NCBI GenBank assembly: GCA_017514765.1 | Contig: JAFWIU010000005.1 | Coordinates: 1-52,854, forward strand | Origin: Candidatus Saccharimonadota bacterium | GTDB lineage: Bacteria; Patescibacteriota; Saccharimonadia; Saccharimonadales; Saccharimonadaceae | Length of the DNA: 52,854 bases | Direction of reading: 5' to 3' | In this document: one piece after another, positions 46,507 to 52,854 of the stretch | Position numbering within the stretch: the first letter of the stretch is position 1 | How the letters are laid out: the number at the start of each line of letters is the position of its first letter | The notes under the pieces: generated by a model | Seen by the model: the letters and a program-made list of their open reading frames with translations, nothing else | The model's database searches: none | Told to the model about the DNA's origin: nothing | Program-made: the position numbers and the translations under genes

Positions 46507-47484
46507 CTAGGAAAACAACGTCATCTGCTTAACGTCATTATCTTCAAGTTTTTCTTTTGTTTCAAATCTACTCCTAAATTCTTCATCAGTCATCAAATCC
46601 TTCACGCTCCATTCTCCATCAATCGCAATCGCCCCTTCCTTTATCAAGGCAAGGTTATCACTATATTTCGCATTATTCCAACAATACACTGGACAATACT
46701 TATTCTTTAAATTTTCCTTCACACCGCTCCAAGTCCCACCTTGTTTTATTGATTTTATCGCCACCACCGCTTCAGCCTGCGCATAAATATACTTGTTACG
46801 ATTCATCGCATTCCCAACGTTGAAACCTGCATCTGGGTTCACTACCGAAAGAAGTAGCAGCTTCCCTTTCTGCACCGCCTTCACTACTTCACTCTTTCGT
46901 AATTTCCGAATCATCGAATCCGCCAAGTATTCAATCACTCTTCCACCGCTACTCAGTGCCACTTCCTCCGAAATCATATCCGCACCGCGCGCTCCACCCG
47001 ACACGATCGCATATTTTCGCCGAACCGTTTCCTTTACCAATTTAGTCTCGAAATCAATATCCCCAGCCGTCATATCTCGTGAGCCCACGAAACCAACACT
47101 ACGTTTCTTCAGTAATTTCAAATCTCCAGCATAGAAGAAATAAGGCGGGCAAGATTCCCCTAACTTATTTTTTAGTCTCACCGGGTATGCCTTATCAGCT
47201 CTTGTCACCAACGAAATTCCCATATTTTCATACTTCGACACCTCGAAAAATAAACTTGCACTCCGCCCTACTAAATCCACGATTCTTTCAGCAAATTCAT
47301 CATCACATTCTAATGCCTTCGTTATCTCATCTTTTGACATATCTAGCAAATCACCCGGCACCATTTCCTTCTCAACTAACGTTCTTGCAAGCATTTTCCA
47401 TTCGGACGGTTTGAGCGGTTTAATTCCCTCTCCCACGCATAGATTACTACACAAAATCAAAATCGCTTGAGCATCTTTACTCAT
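46507..47484 (-). CDS. DprA/Smf-like DNA-processing protein
   Basis: Start at 47484 (MSKDAQAILIL) behind AGGAGG at 8 nt. 325 residues. A helical N-terminal part (about 1-100) precedes a Rossmann-like DprA core with VGFVGSRDMTAGDIDFETKLV, YAIVSGGARGADMISEEVALSSGGRVIEYLA and an AEAVVAIKSIKQGGTWSGVKENLK region. DprA loads RecA on incoming DNA in transformation, but this branch also occurs in other DNA-handling or defence loci. The start overlaps the recQ-type gene by 8 nt, so they are one unit. The usual C-terminal winged helix is not evident. Confidence 0.82.
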   Translation of the reverse strand: MSKDAQAILILCSNLCVGEGIKPLKPSEWKMLARTLVEKEMVPGDLLDMSKDEITKALECDDEFAERIVDLVGRSASLFFEVSKYENMGISLVTRADKAYPVRLKNKLGESCPPYFFYAGDLKLLKKRSVGFVGSRDMTAGDIDFETKLVKETVRRKYAIVSGGARGADMISEEVALSSGGRVIEYLADSMIRKLRKSEVVKAVQKGKLLLLSVVNPDAGFNVGNAMNRNKYIYAQAEAVVAIKSIKQGGTWSGVKENLKNKYCPVYCWNNAKYSDNLALIKEGAIAIDGEWSVKDLMTDEEFRSRFETKEKLEDNDVKQMTLFS

Positions 47485-49561
47485 AACCATCTCCTCCTCT
47501 ACCGCTACTATCCGCCAATGCAAATGGGTACACTTCCTCGCACCCACATTCCGTCAGCTTAAACCCGCATACAGTCAACGTCCATCTCGAATCCACCACG
47601 TCATCAACCAAAATCACTTTTCTCGGCACCTTGTAACGGTCTTTTACATAAAACGCCTCAAAAGCGTTCTTACACTGATAATAACTATTTTCCATCTCCT
47701 TCTGCGGCTTATTCACATGCTTATCTAGCAAATCCAAACATTCAATTCCACATTCCTCCGCCAACCTCTCCGCATAATCTCTTACTATATCGCTTCTCAG
47801 TGACGGCACAAAAGTAATATAATCAATATCTTTTTCTATTATCAGATTCTTCAATTCCTCTGCGCCCTTCTCTACTAACTCATCCCTAAATCTCTCAACG
47901 CCAGAATACTTATCCTGACGCACCATTTCACCATACCCTTCTTCGCCGTATTGCGACAAGCAGATCCCCACCTGGTTTGGCTGCCGGATCGTTACTCTAT
48001 CACCAAAATTATTCCGCGGCCACTGTTTTCGCGGTTCTATCTCAAGCGTTATTCTATCAAGATAATCTTTTGCCGTATCAATCGATGCACCAGACAAAGT
48101 CGACGGGAAAAACTCTTCGCCCAAACAATTCACACAATGGTTGCAATCTTTTGCCGTTTCATCATTCAAACATCTTACTGTATATTTACTTAAACATTTA
48201 TCCGTATAAGTCAGATTAATCATCTCTTGCATTTCCTGTCGCCGAATATTGGAAATAGCATTATACTTCTCAGCATCATAATAGAACCGCTTAGCTGTCG
48301 CATAATAACGAATCGGATTCCGTTCAACTCGCACAAAACCATCATTTATTAGAAAACTCAGTACTTTTTCTATTTTCTGTCGCTTAACATTAAAACCAAA
48401 CTGCAAATCTTTTATCGTTACCCCATCCCGATCAAGTATAAACTGGTATATTTCTTCCGTCTCCTTCCTCGACGGGAAAGCATGGTCAATAAAATAATTC
48501 AAAATATCCTCATCCTCTTCACCATAAAGCAGTATCGCATACGCATTATCTAGTTTCCTCCCCGCCCTACCAATCTGCTGATAATACGAAACAATGTTTG
48601 ACGGCAATTGGAAATGAATTACGAAAGAAATATCATCTTTATCATAGCCCATACCCAGTTTAATTGTCGCAACCAAAGCCTTAATTTTGTTTTCCTTAAA
48701 ATCCTCTTCTACTTCCCGACAGTACTCATCAGGCAGCTTGGAATGGTATGGCACCGCATGTATGCCGTTCTCCTGCAAAAACCTCGCCAAATTATCACAA
48801 TCTTTCGTCGTCAAACAATAAATTATTCCACTACCAGGAATCCGATTAATGTTTTCCAGAATCCACGCATACCTTTCTACCTTGCTCGGCATATTAATCA
48901 CCTGTATAGACAAAGATTCCCTAGTCAAAGGTCCCCGTGACAAGAAAACGTCATTTCCAAACTGCCGCTCCAAATCGCGAATCACCCGATTGTTTGCCGT
49001 AGCAGTCGTCGCAAGCAGCGGCACGTTCGATGGCAATTCCGCTATCACTTTCTTCAGATTACCATATTCCAATCGAAAATCATGCCCCCAGTCCGATATA
49101 CAATGCGCTTCGTCTACCACGAAAAGACCAATCCGAATGTTTCTTAATTCACTCTGCACATCACTACTAAACAAAGTCTCCGGCGTCACGAAAACGATAT
49201 CTAATTCATCGCGTACCATTGCATTAATAATATCTGGACGTCTATCTTTGACCGTACTGTTTAGCACATCGCACTTTAAATCGAGCTTCCGCGCCGCCTC
49301 AAGCTGATTTTGCATCAACACTAAGAGTGGACTTACAACCAGCGTCACTCCATCACCACGCTCGCGCATCAACTTCGTTGTCAAGAAATACACCAAGCTC
49401 TTTCCCCACCCAGTACGTTGTACTACTAACGTCCGCAGATTTGTCAAAGTCGCTTCAATGGCCTCATACTGACCATCACGAAAAGTCGCATCACGCCCAT
49501 ACAGCTCCTTCAGTATCCTAGAGCATTCTTCATATATTTCTGGCTGTTTTACTTCTGGCAT
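47477..49561 (-). CDS. RecQ-family DNA helicase fused to a phosphoribosyltransferase domain
   Basis: Start at 49561 (MPEVKQPEIYEE), 10 nt after a TATAAT. 694 residues. Helicase core: QRTGWGKSLVYF (Lys54), VVDEAHCISDWGHDFR, LLATTATANNRVIRDL, GSGIIYCLTTKDCDN and YYQQIGRAGRKLDNA. A Cys-rich zinc motif (ETAKDCNHCVNCLGEEFFP) follows. The last 150 residues end in VILVDDVVDSRWTLTVCGFKL, the PRPP-binding motif of ComF-like phosphoribosyltransferases. It should unwind DNA in a 3'-5' direction; the role of the PRTase end is unknown. With the DprA-like gene it forms a two-gene DNA-processing unit. Confidence 0.88.
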   Translation of the reverse strand: MPEVKQPEIYEECSRILKELYGRDATFRDGQYEAIEATLTNLRTLVVQRTGWGKSLVYFLTTKLMRERGDGVTLVVSPLLVLMQNQLEAARKLDLKCDVLNSTVKDRRPDIINAMVRDELDIVFVTPETLFSSDVQSELRNIRIGLFVVDEAHCISDWGHDFRLEYGNLKKVIAELPSNVPLLATTATANNRVIRDLERQFGNDVFLSRGPLTRESLSIQVINMPSKVERYAWILENINRIPGSGIIYCLTTKDCDNLARFLQENGIHAVPYHSKLPDEYCREVEEDFKENKIKALVATIKLGMGYDKDDISFVIHFQLPSNIVSYYQQIGRAGRKLDNAYAILLYGEEDEDILNYFIDHAFPSRKETEEIYQFILDRDGVTIKDLQFGFNVKRQKIEKVLSFLINDGFVRVERNPIRYYATAKRFYYDAEKYNAISNIRRQEMQEMINLTYTDKCLSKYTVRCLNDETAKDCNHCVNCLGEEFFPSTLSGASIDTAKDYLDRITLEIEPRKQWPRNNFGDRVTIRQPNQVGICLSQYGEEGYGEMVRQDKYSGVERFRDELVEKGAEELKNLIIEKDIDYITFVPSLRSDIVRDYAERLAEECGIECLDLLDKHVNKPQKEMENSYYQCKNAFEAFYVKDRYKVPRKVILVDDVVDSRWTLTVCGFKLTECGCEEVYPFALADSSGRGGDGYE

Positions 49562-49610
49562 ATTACCCTTAATTATATCAAAAAACGCCACTAAAGGGCG
49601 CATATTCTAA

Positions 49611-51953: not shown

Positions 51954-51982
51954 TTGCAATTTATTGCAAAATATAGTATAAC
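51954..51982 (+). promoter_or_regulatory. Exporter promoter with operator-like palindrome
   Basis: TTGCAA, 17-bp spacer, TATAAC. The -35 is the left half of a perfect 7-2-7 palindrome (51954-51969, TTGCAAT-TT-ATTGCAA), placed so that a bound dimeric regulator would block RNA polymerase. Predicted transcription start is near 51989, leaving about 245 nt of leader. Confidence 0.7.
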
Positions 51983-52006
51983 AAAGACATGTGTAGATAT
52001 ATTTCC

Positions 52007-52090
52007 ATGCACGAGTCAAATACAACAAAATGGGCCAATCTTTTTGGTCTCATTTCAGTATATCATGACTTGTGCGCGGGAGTTATCTAA
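52007..52090 (+). CDS. Candidate 27-residue leader peptide of the exporter gene
   Basis: ATG at 52007 to TAA at 52090, within the exporter leader RNA. It starts MHESNTTKWANLFG and ends DLCAGVI. The stop codon lies in TTATCTAA (52083-52090), one of three segments that can pair alternatively, so a ribosome on this frame would control RNA folding. There is no clear ribosome binding site (only UAUAUUUCC before the ATG), which weakens the call. Confidence 0.5.
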   Translation: MHESNTTKWANLFGLISVYHDLCAGVI

Positions 52091-52198
52091 AACTTACAAC
52101 CAAACTCTTCCAAATCGGAATTAGATAAACCCCGAAGCAACCGTTTCGGGGTTTATCTAGCCGCACAGAAGCAACCACAAAAGCATTCACGGCGGCTA
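52083..52198 (+). promoter_or_regulatory. Mutually exclusive hairpins in the exporter leader
   Basis: TTATCTAA (52083-52090) can pair with TTAGATAA (52121-52128). The latter is also part of a 15-bp perfect hairpin (52122-52136/52145-52159), and a third stem (52158-52164/52192-52198) follows 22 nt before the ribosome binding site. Only one of the first two can form at a time. No T run follows, so control of translation or RNA stability is more likely than termination. Confidence 0.6.
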
Positions 52199-52234
52199 AA
52201 GCACCTTAACACACGGTTAGAAAGGAGTTAAAAA

Positions 52235-52854
52235 ATGAAAACATCCCATGCTCTTAAAGAAGCTCGGAAAAACTTATTTCTCGTAATGGCGGAATCTGCC
52301 ATTACAGAGGGACTCCTCTGCATGTCCATCATGACGCCATTTTTTAATTCAATCGGATTAAACCAAAGTCAGATATCATTGACCCAAATCTTTTTTACAA
52401 TTGTAGTGCTTATCTTCAATGTTCCCACCGGATACATTGCAGACCGCATCAGTCGTAAATGGGCCAACATTATCGGCGATATAGGCCATGGCATCTTGTT
52501 ACTAGCTTACGCTTTTACTAACAACTTTTTAGGAGTAGTAATCTGCGAAAGCCTCATGGGCATAGCGTCAGCACTCAGTGCCGGCGTCGATCAGAGTCTC
52601 TTGAAACACTTTGCTACCAAAATAGCCAAGGAAACCGACAAATCAGCGAACCATATCTTAAAAACCAAAACTGCTAAGCTAGAATGCGCTAAATACGCTT
52701 GCACCCTATGCTTACTCATGCTCGGTGGCCCCATCGGCGCCATCAGTCTGCGTCTAGCCATAGCGTTATCGAGCATTACGCAATTTGCAGGTGGCATCAT
52801 CAGTATTTTTATCGACGACGATAGCGAAAAACTCGTCCCCGTCCATAAAAACCC
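52235..52854 (+). CDS. MFS-family transporter, 3' end beyond the window
   Basis: ATG at 52235 behind AAAGGAG; the frame is open for 206 codons to the window edge. Membrane helices at about 20-40, 48-70, 78-98, 100-120 and 155-175, with the MFS motif A GYIADRISRKWANIIG between helices 2 and 3 and a Gly/Ser-rich ALSAGVDQSLLKH after helix 4. A drug or small-molecule exporter is the likely role. Its leader has the marks of inducible attenuation. Confidence 0.85.
   Translation, partial: MKTSHALKEARKNLFLVMAESAITEGLLCMSIMTPFFNSIGLNQSQISLTQIFFTIVVLIFNVPTGYIADRISRKWANIIGDIGHGILLLAYAFTNNFLGVVICESLMGIASALSAGVDQSLLKHFATKIAKETDKSANHILKTKTAKLECAKYACTLCLLMLGGPIGAISLRLAIALSSITQFAGGIISIFIDDDSEKLVPVHKN

Follow-up and report, generated by a model that had tools for sequence, protein, structure and literature searches.

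Upstream of an MFS exporter gene of a Saccharibacteria genome we identified a leader that, judged from its sequence, is probably a ribosome-mediated transcription attenuator: translation of a short leader ORF appears to decide whether transcription reaches the exporter gene or, at other loci, an acetyltransferase gene. The same leader was found at 79 loci, 54 with MFS and 25 with GNAT genes. Comparison supports the ORF, its spacing from the promoter, the pairings and, leaving one genus aside, the terminators of most relatives; we infer the start site, the translation, the termination and the read-through. A sequence-only reading had proposed a leader-peptide attenuator before an exporter in CPR bacteria and had set conservation of the small frame and of the alternative stems in relatives as a test beforehand; both were looked at, and the conserved ORF and pairings support the proposal rather than refute it. 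Ribosome-mediated attenuation is an already known kind of control; what is new is the lineage, a leader ORF that is probably leaderless and precedes genes of two kinds (MFS and GNAT), and the extra conserved elements D and E.

Genomic context and exporter gene

The window (the whole stretch of DNA analyzed, 52,854 nt) is the end of a Saccharibacteria contig, one of 12 contigs of a 0.70 Mb genome with a completeness of 99.2%. The features of the leader are listed in Table 1. Full-length orthologs of the exporter comprise approximately 400 residues and gave weak scores, far under the cut-offs, with models of TetA(P), Tet(40), HP1165 and H+-antiporters. The predicted structure (mean pLDDT 84) corresponds to a generic MFS fold, and a structure search yielded generic MFS matches, the bacterial drug pumps EfpA, YajR, NorA and MdfA included. 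Because the sequence-model scores are weak and the structural matches generic, the substrate and the direction of transport are only presumed. Among the 295 family genomes searched, 62 carried the exporter; its closest orthologs were also located on 11 named contigs, all of them from Saccharibacteria and many from ruminant guts. Elsewhere in the window (46507-49603), an ORF for a RecQ-like helicase with a C-terminal extension shares a 71-nt overlap with a dprA-like ORF.

Table 1. Coordinates of the leader and of the exporter gene in the window.
Feature	Position	Strand	Remarks
-35 box TTGCAA	51954..51959	+	17 nt from -10 box; equals left half of palindrome; TTGACT or TTGCAT in relatives
-10 box TATAAC	51977..51982	+	ends 6 nt ahead of leader ATG
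Leader ORF	51989..52090	+	33 codons plus TAA (52088-52090); peptide MCRYISMHESNTTKWANLFGLISVYHDLCAGVI*; probably leaderless
Segment A (region 1)	51994..52018	+	pairs with B
Hairpin in leader ORF	52028..52055	+	predicted; candidate RNA polymerase pause hairpin, putative role
Segment B (region 2)	52066..52090	+	end of leader ORF including stop codon; alternative partners A and C
Segment C (region 3)	52121..52137	+	partner of B in the antiterminator, of D in the terminator
Segment D (region 4)	52143..52160	+	3' arm of 17-bp terminator hairpin 52122-52159; U-tract UUUAUCU 52152-52158
Hairpin E	52158..52198	+	arms 52158-52164 and 52192-52198; conserved
Shine-Dalgarno sequence of exporter gene, AAGGAG	52222..52227	+	
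MFS exporter gene	52235..52852	+	PF07690, 36 bits; cut at contig end, 206 of ~400 codons

Promoter and leader ORF

The -35 box is overlapped by the exact 7-2-7 palindrome TTGCAATTTATTGCAA at 51954-51969, which the sequence-only reading had correctly recognized and taken for a likely transcription operator. A repressor acting there as the main control would fit the position and the exactness of this copy (with up to two mismatches, 0.49 such patterns are expected per window by chance). The operator claim fails because the palindrome is not conserved: it was missing from 9/9 same-genus relatives and occurs as a single copy in the genome, and its left half is simply the -35 box. A TetR/MarR-like regulator gene next to the palindrome, suggested earlier as a check, was not found either, as the gene adjoining the leader encodes a CYTH protein. 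Control by a repressor at this site is thus most improbable.

Promoter spacing was evaluated for 59 leaders (48 MFS and 11 GNAT). The distance from the -10 box to the leader ATG was 6 nt in 46 and 6-7 nt in 52 of them, base -1 of the ATG was T in 50, and a Shine-Dalgarno-like motif ahead of the ATG was present in 0/59. Because the ATG lies exactly 6 nt past the -10 box without a ribosome-binding site, the leader ORF is probably translated from a leaderless 5' end; from the promoter spacing, transcription probably starts on the A of the leader ATG. The 27-codon frame described earlier holds with regard to the open frame and its stop codon; the conserved start is at 51989, and 52007 is internal to the 33-codon ORF.

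After removal of duplicates, 48 MFS leaders were read, all of which carry the small frame. It was open across 27 codons in 48/48, compared with 15.4 ± 3.2 in dinucleotide shuffles; the leader starts had been chosen by promoter spacing, which biases toward open frames indirectly only. The other two forward frames contained a stop in 41/48 and 45/48 MFS leaders. The pN/pS values were 0.58-0.65 in frame versus 0.79-1.11 out of frame, and bootstrapping placed the in-frame value below the out-of-frame values 56-57 times out of 59 for the genus of the window (g1) and 59-60 times out of 60 for genus g11. The leader ORF therefore appears to be under selection as an ORF and is presumably translated. 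In the genus of the window, 4/10 leaders are out of frame right ahead of segment B. An N-terminal motif, M-N-x-Y-N-P, is repeated in MFS leaders of different families (e.g. L007, L070, L147, L148); it may be a signal in the peptide, or it may follow from A:B pairing as a by-product.

These results bear on the possibility that the leader is a ligand-binding riboswitch or binds a protein, with an incidental open frame. The strong and conserved structure of the leader would suit such an element, as would the conservation of hairpin E and its flanking bases. An incidental frame is, however, contradicted by its being open in all 48 leaders, by the in-frame selection and by the fixed promoter-ATG spacing; in addition, no Rfam covariance model matched the window or nine related loci at gathering score, which argues against a known riboswitch. 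We consider this explanation scarcely probable.

Alternative pairings of the leader RNA

The fold predicted for positions 51990-52260 had an energy of -90 kcal/mol versus -50.9 kcal/mol in shuffled sequences (z -8.8). Within this structure, mutually exclusive pairings of three segments had been described previously; these exist, and a fourth segment (A), as well as the hairpin at 52158-52198, had been missed. In the window, A and B (51994-52018 with 52066-52089) form 23 pairs. Among 33 representatives, the mean energy of A:B with the own partner was -19.1 kcal/mol, compared with -10.8 ± 0.67 kcal/mol with swapped partners (0/500 permutations). The earlier proposal that the segment with the stop codon of the small frame pairs with 52121-52128 was confirmed: TTATCTAA in B can pair with TTAGATAA in C, and the pairing in the window is even longer, reaching past these 8 bases to GGG:CCC (-15.6 kcal/mol). 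A competing hairpin is indeed located at 52122-52159, comprising 17 pairs (-27.3 kcal/mol) instead of the 15 bp assigned to it.

Covariation was evaluated for each group of leaders separately, because a MAFFT alignment of all groups together placed C against C', the partner of C in distant relatives. In the distant MFS leaders, C:C' was paired in 100% of cells (6 double-change cells), B:C in 98.9% (7 double-change cells) and C:D in 92.4% (12 double-change cells), each with 0/500 shuffles; all three exceeded the 500 shuffles in covariation score and double-change cells as well as every slid control, values that are strong but not formal significance, as the shuffle controls leave shared ancestry in. 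Compensatory changes of B:C and C:D were seen again in the GNAT leaders, with 12-14 double-change cells for C:D across the sets. Within the genus of the window, C:D showed 4 double-change cells and B:C no compensatory changes. Taken together, the segments resemble in their behavior regions 1 to 4 of a classic attenuator, with A:B, the antiterminator B:C, and the terminator C:C' or C:D.

In hairpin E, 98.6-99.2% of cells were paired in two genera, and a compensatory CTG..CAG change was found in one distant relative. Hairpin E was also considered as a terminator and rejected, as most leaders have no U-tract there. D and E (52143-52198 of the window, with equivalents in all leaders) are kept phylum-wide, even beside the separate terminator with C'. 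Hairpins of the GGCC..GGUC type with other sequence are found in the middle of the ORF at the same place in most relatives, as judged by eye. The mid-ORF hairpin could presumably make the polymerase pause and so give the ribosome time to close the gap.

Intrinsic terminators and possible translational control

Many relatives contain textbook intrinsic terminators (CCTCC..GGAGGTTTTTT). Clear examples with U-tracts are present in the distant MFS and the GNAT leaders, among them the C:C' terminators GTCTCCGACAAGGGAGAC-TTTTTT (L072) and CCTCCGGACCACGGAGG-TTTTT (L081). The terminator d-score was above 0 in 10/11 distant MFS leaders (L073: -2.7). In the genus of the window C' is absent, and C:D with the U-tract UUUAUCU is the terminator candidate; its d-score was +2.5 in the window, which is borderline, and -3.6 to -21.9 in the remaining leaders of the genus. 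In nearly all g11 leaders it was strongly negative, and a recognizable terminator was not found there.

The sequence-only reading had interpreted the leader as a translation attenuator. In such an erm/cat-type system, refolding would mask or release the Shine-Dalgarno sequence in front of the main gene. For the genus of the window this did not hold: the competing hairpin is terminator-like, the Shine-Dalgarno sequence is located approximately 62 nt downstream of it, pairing of D with the Shine-Dalgarno sequence was not in excess (1/10), and the predicted accessibility of the latter in the window was nearly constant across ribosome positions. The intrinsic terminators of the distant leaders are likewise contrary to this type. 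In genus g11, by comparison, the lack of terminators is what translational control would allow, and some leaders exhibit strong pairing of D with the Shine-Dalgarno sequence, e.g. UCUCCUUU with AAAGGAGGGA (L019, L024-L027; 9/27 at the 5% level). As a general explanation of the leader, erm/cat-type control is unlikely. Segment C was tested as anti-Shine-Dalgarno sequence of the main gene and rejected (at most 1/11 at the 5% level). Genus g11 (L012-L029) no longer has the U-tract, and some of its members have a D that is complementary to the Shine-Dalgarno sequence; for this reason, g11 may have moved from transcriptional to translational control.

Proposed mechanism

According to the attenuator model, the A of the leader ATG would be the first base transcribed, so that a ribosome would load on the leaderless 33-codon ORF. 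Without a ribosome, A would pair with B, leaving C free for its downstream partner, and the intrinsic terminator would form (OFF). A fast ribosome at the stop codon would cover B, and the terminator would form again (OFF). A ribosome slowed between approximately codon 1 and codon 20 would block A, so that B could pair with C; the terminator arm would then remain unpaired, and the polymerase would enter the exporter gene (ON).

The model was followed in the distant MFS and GNAT leaders by folding the transcript to the end of the U-tract with the ribosome-covered bases hidden. In these calculations, A:B and the terminator formed without a ribosome. With the ribosome in the middle of the ORF, the expected number of B:C pairs increased from approximately 1 to 4-5, and the terminator became weaker; with the ribosome at the stop codon, B:C dropped to 0 and the terminator was complete. 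In the window, the terminator is always favored at equilibrium (-27.3 versus -15.6 kcal/mol). Since it far outweighs B:C in the window and its genus, switching there would have to be kinetic, with B:C forming first during transcription; for the window itself, this kinetic antitermination is the weakest link of the model.

The four-segment architecture equals that of trp/his-type attenuators, in which the leader would contain codons for one amino acid, here supplied by the transporter. Trp codons near positions 9-15 or 26 in some leaders would agree with such a function. Among 77 leader peptides, however, no amino acid was enriched (Asn ranked highest with 9.6%) and Trp was absent from many, and the presence of the same leader at genes for GNAT enzymes argues against amino-acid sensing. 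An amino-acid attenuator is therefore very unlikely. For the ribosome-mediated attenuator, our guess by analogy is that ribosome-targeting compounds or general translation stress act as the trigger, because the products of the controlled genes are exporters or GNAT acetyltransferases, and single-residue runs are absent from the leader peptides. On inspection, these peptides showed no macrolide stall motif of the MRLR type. Given that neither such a motif nor a codon run was seen, general slowing of translation is at least as likely a trigger as one specific drug.

Distribution of the leader family

A whole-genome DNA search with the leader retrieved close relatives and noise only, and covariance models were needed. 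With model R1, built from the distant MFS leaders, a search of the 295 family genomes revealed the leader also before a GNAT acetyltransferase gene (PF13302) in other genera. A second model, R2, extended the distribution to further families within the order and to further classes within the phylum; its matches judged genuine singly comprised 14 additional GNAT and 6 additional MFS loci. The GNAT leaders (L103-L111, L114, L117, L118-L125, L136-L139, L146, L149) belong to several families and classes of Patescibacteria, with class and family taken from kinship labels. The weak matches L126, L129 and L150 had neither a promoter-spaced leader ORF nor a downstream MFS or GNAT gene and were dropped. 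One leader was seen per genome; second matches were at the same place on the opposite strand. The exporter ortholog G001 (L004, L063, L091) of the same genus has no leader, with promoter and Shine-Dalgarno sequence only.

The candidate RNA family is absent from Rfam 15. The earlier statement that no such system had been described in CPR bacteria agrees with the literature searched: in open-licence full texts, no attenuator in Saccharibacteria or other CPR bacteria was described.

Comparison with known attenuators

The bmrB-bmrCD system of Bacillus subtilis comprises a translated leader ORF, alternative stem-loops and an intrinsic terminator, and its drug exporter is induced by ribosome-targeting antibiotics (PMC4191407). 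The likeness lies in the translated leader ORF, the alternative stems and the terminator before an exporter; no sequence relation to the leader family was seen, and the two are likened by layout. In contrast to the MFS exporter studied here, bmrCD encodes an ABC transporter, and the terminator is located inside the leader ORF. The bmrB leader ORF is not known to be leaderless. In mef(E)/mel of Streptococcus pneumoniae, a leader peptide, a terminator and an anti-attenuator are located upstream of an MFS exporter (PMC4335068). Its leader MTASMRLR, of 8 codons, is served by a separate ribosome-binding site and contains a macrolide stall motif, whereas the leader ORFs described here mostly have 28-44 codons, no ribosome-binding site and no such motif seen in their peptides. 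Attenuators before exporters are known to respond to ribosome-targeting drugs (PMC4191407, PMC4335068).

The attenuators of the trp and his operons share the regions 1:2, 2:3 and 3:4 and the translated leader with the family; unlike these, it has no regulatory codon run, the stop codon is at the 3' end of region 2 and the controlled genes are not biosynthetic. The whiB7 uORF attenuators of Actinobacteria are a further case of leader peptides linked to attenuators and antibiotic responses, and trpL of Sinorhizobium meliloti is leaderless. For trpL/peTrpL of the latter organism, the leader peptide has been linked to an attenuator and an antibiotic response (PMC7298713). Both systems differ from the leader family in phylum, peptide and RNA fold; moreover, peTrpL has its effect in trans, and whiB7 encodes a regulator. 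With ermC and ermB the family shares hairpins that exclude one another, the choice between them being made by a ribosome stalled on the leader; the ermC and ermB leaders control access to the ribosome-binding site, whereas the leader in the genus of the window most likely controls transcription.

Implications

Resistance genes commonly encode exporters or GNAT enzymes. A broader, tentative reading, to which we give less credence than to attenuation as such, is that of an ancient switch of Patescibacteria, in which the leaderless ORF would gauge general ribosome activity (translation speed and leaderless initiation) rather than one drug, and which would have been retained while the controlled gene was swapped among unrelated transporters and an acetyltransferase. 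If true, no ribosome-sensing attenuator would have been known from this radiation before. As a native switch of approximately 250 nt with an ON state expected from slowed translation, the leader is directly testable and a potential tool. The leader family suggests that the ultrasmall and poorly understood parasites of the Patescibacteria own inducible, resistance-type gene control. If so, bacteria with very small genomes would regulate resistance-type exporters and acetyltransferases, a point relevant to the question of why resistance-like genes are present in CPR genomes (PMC8651080).
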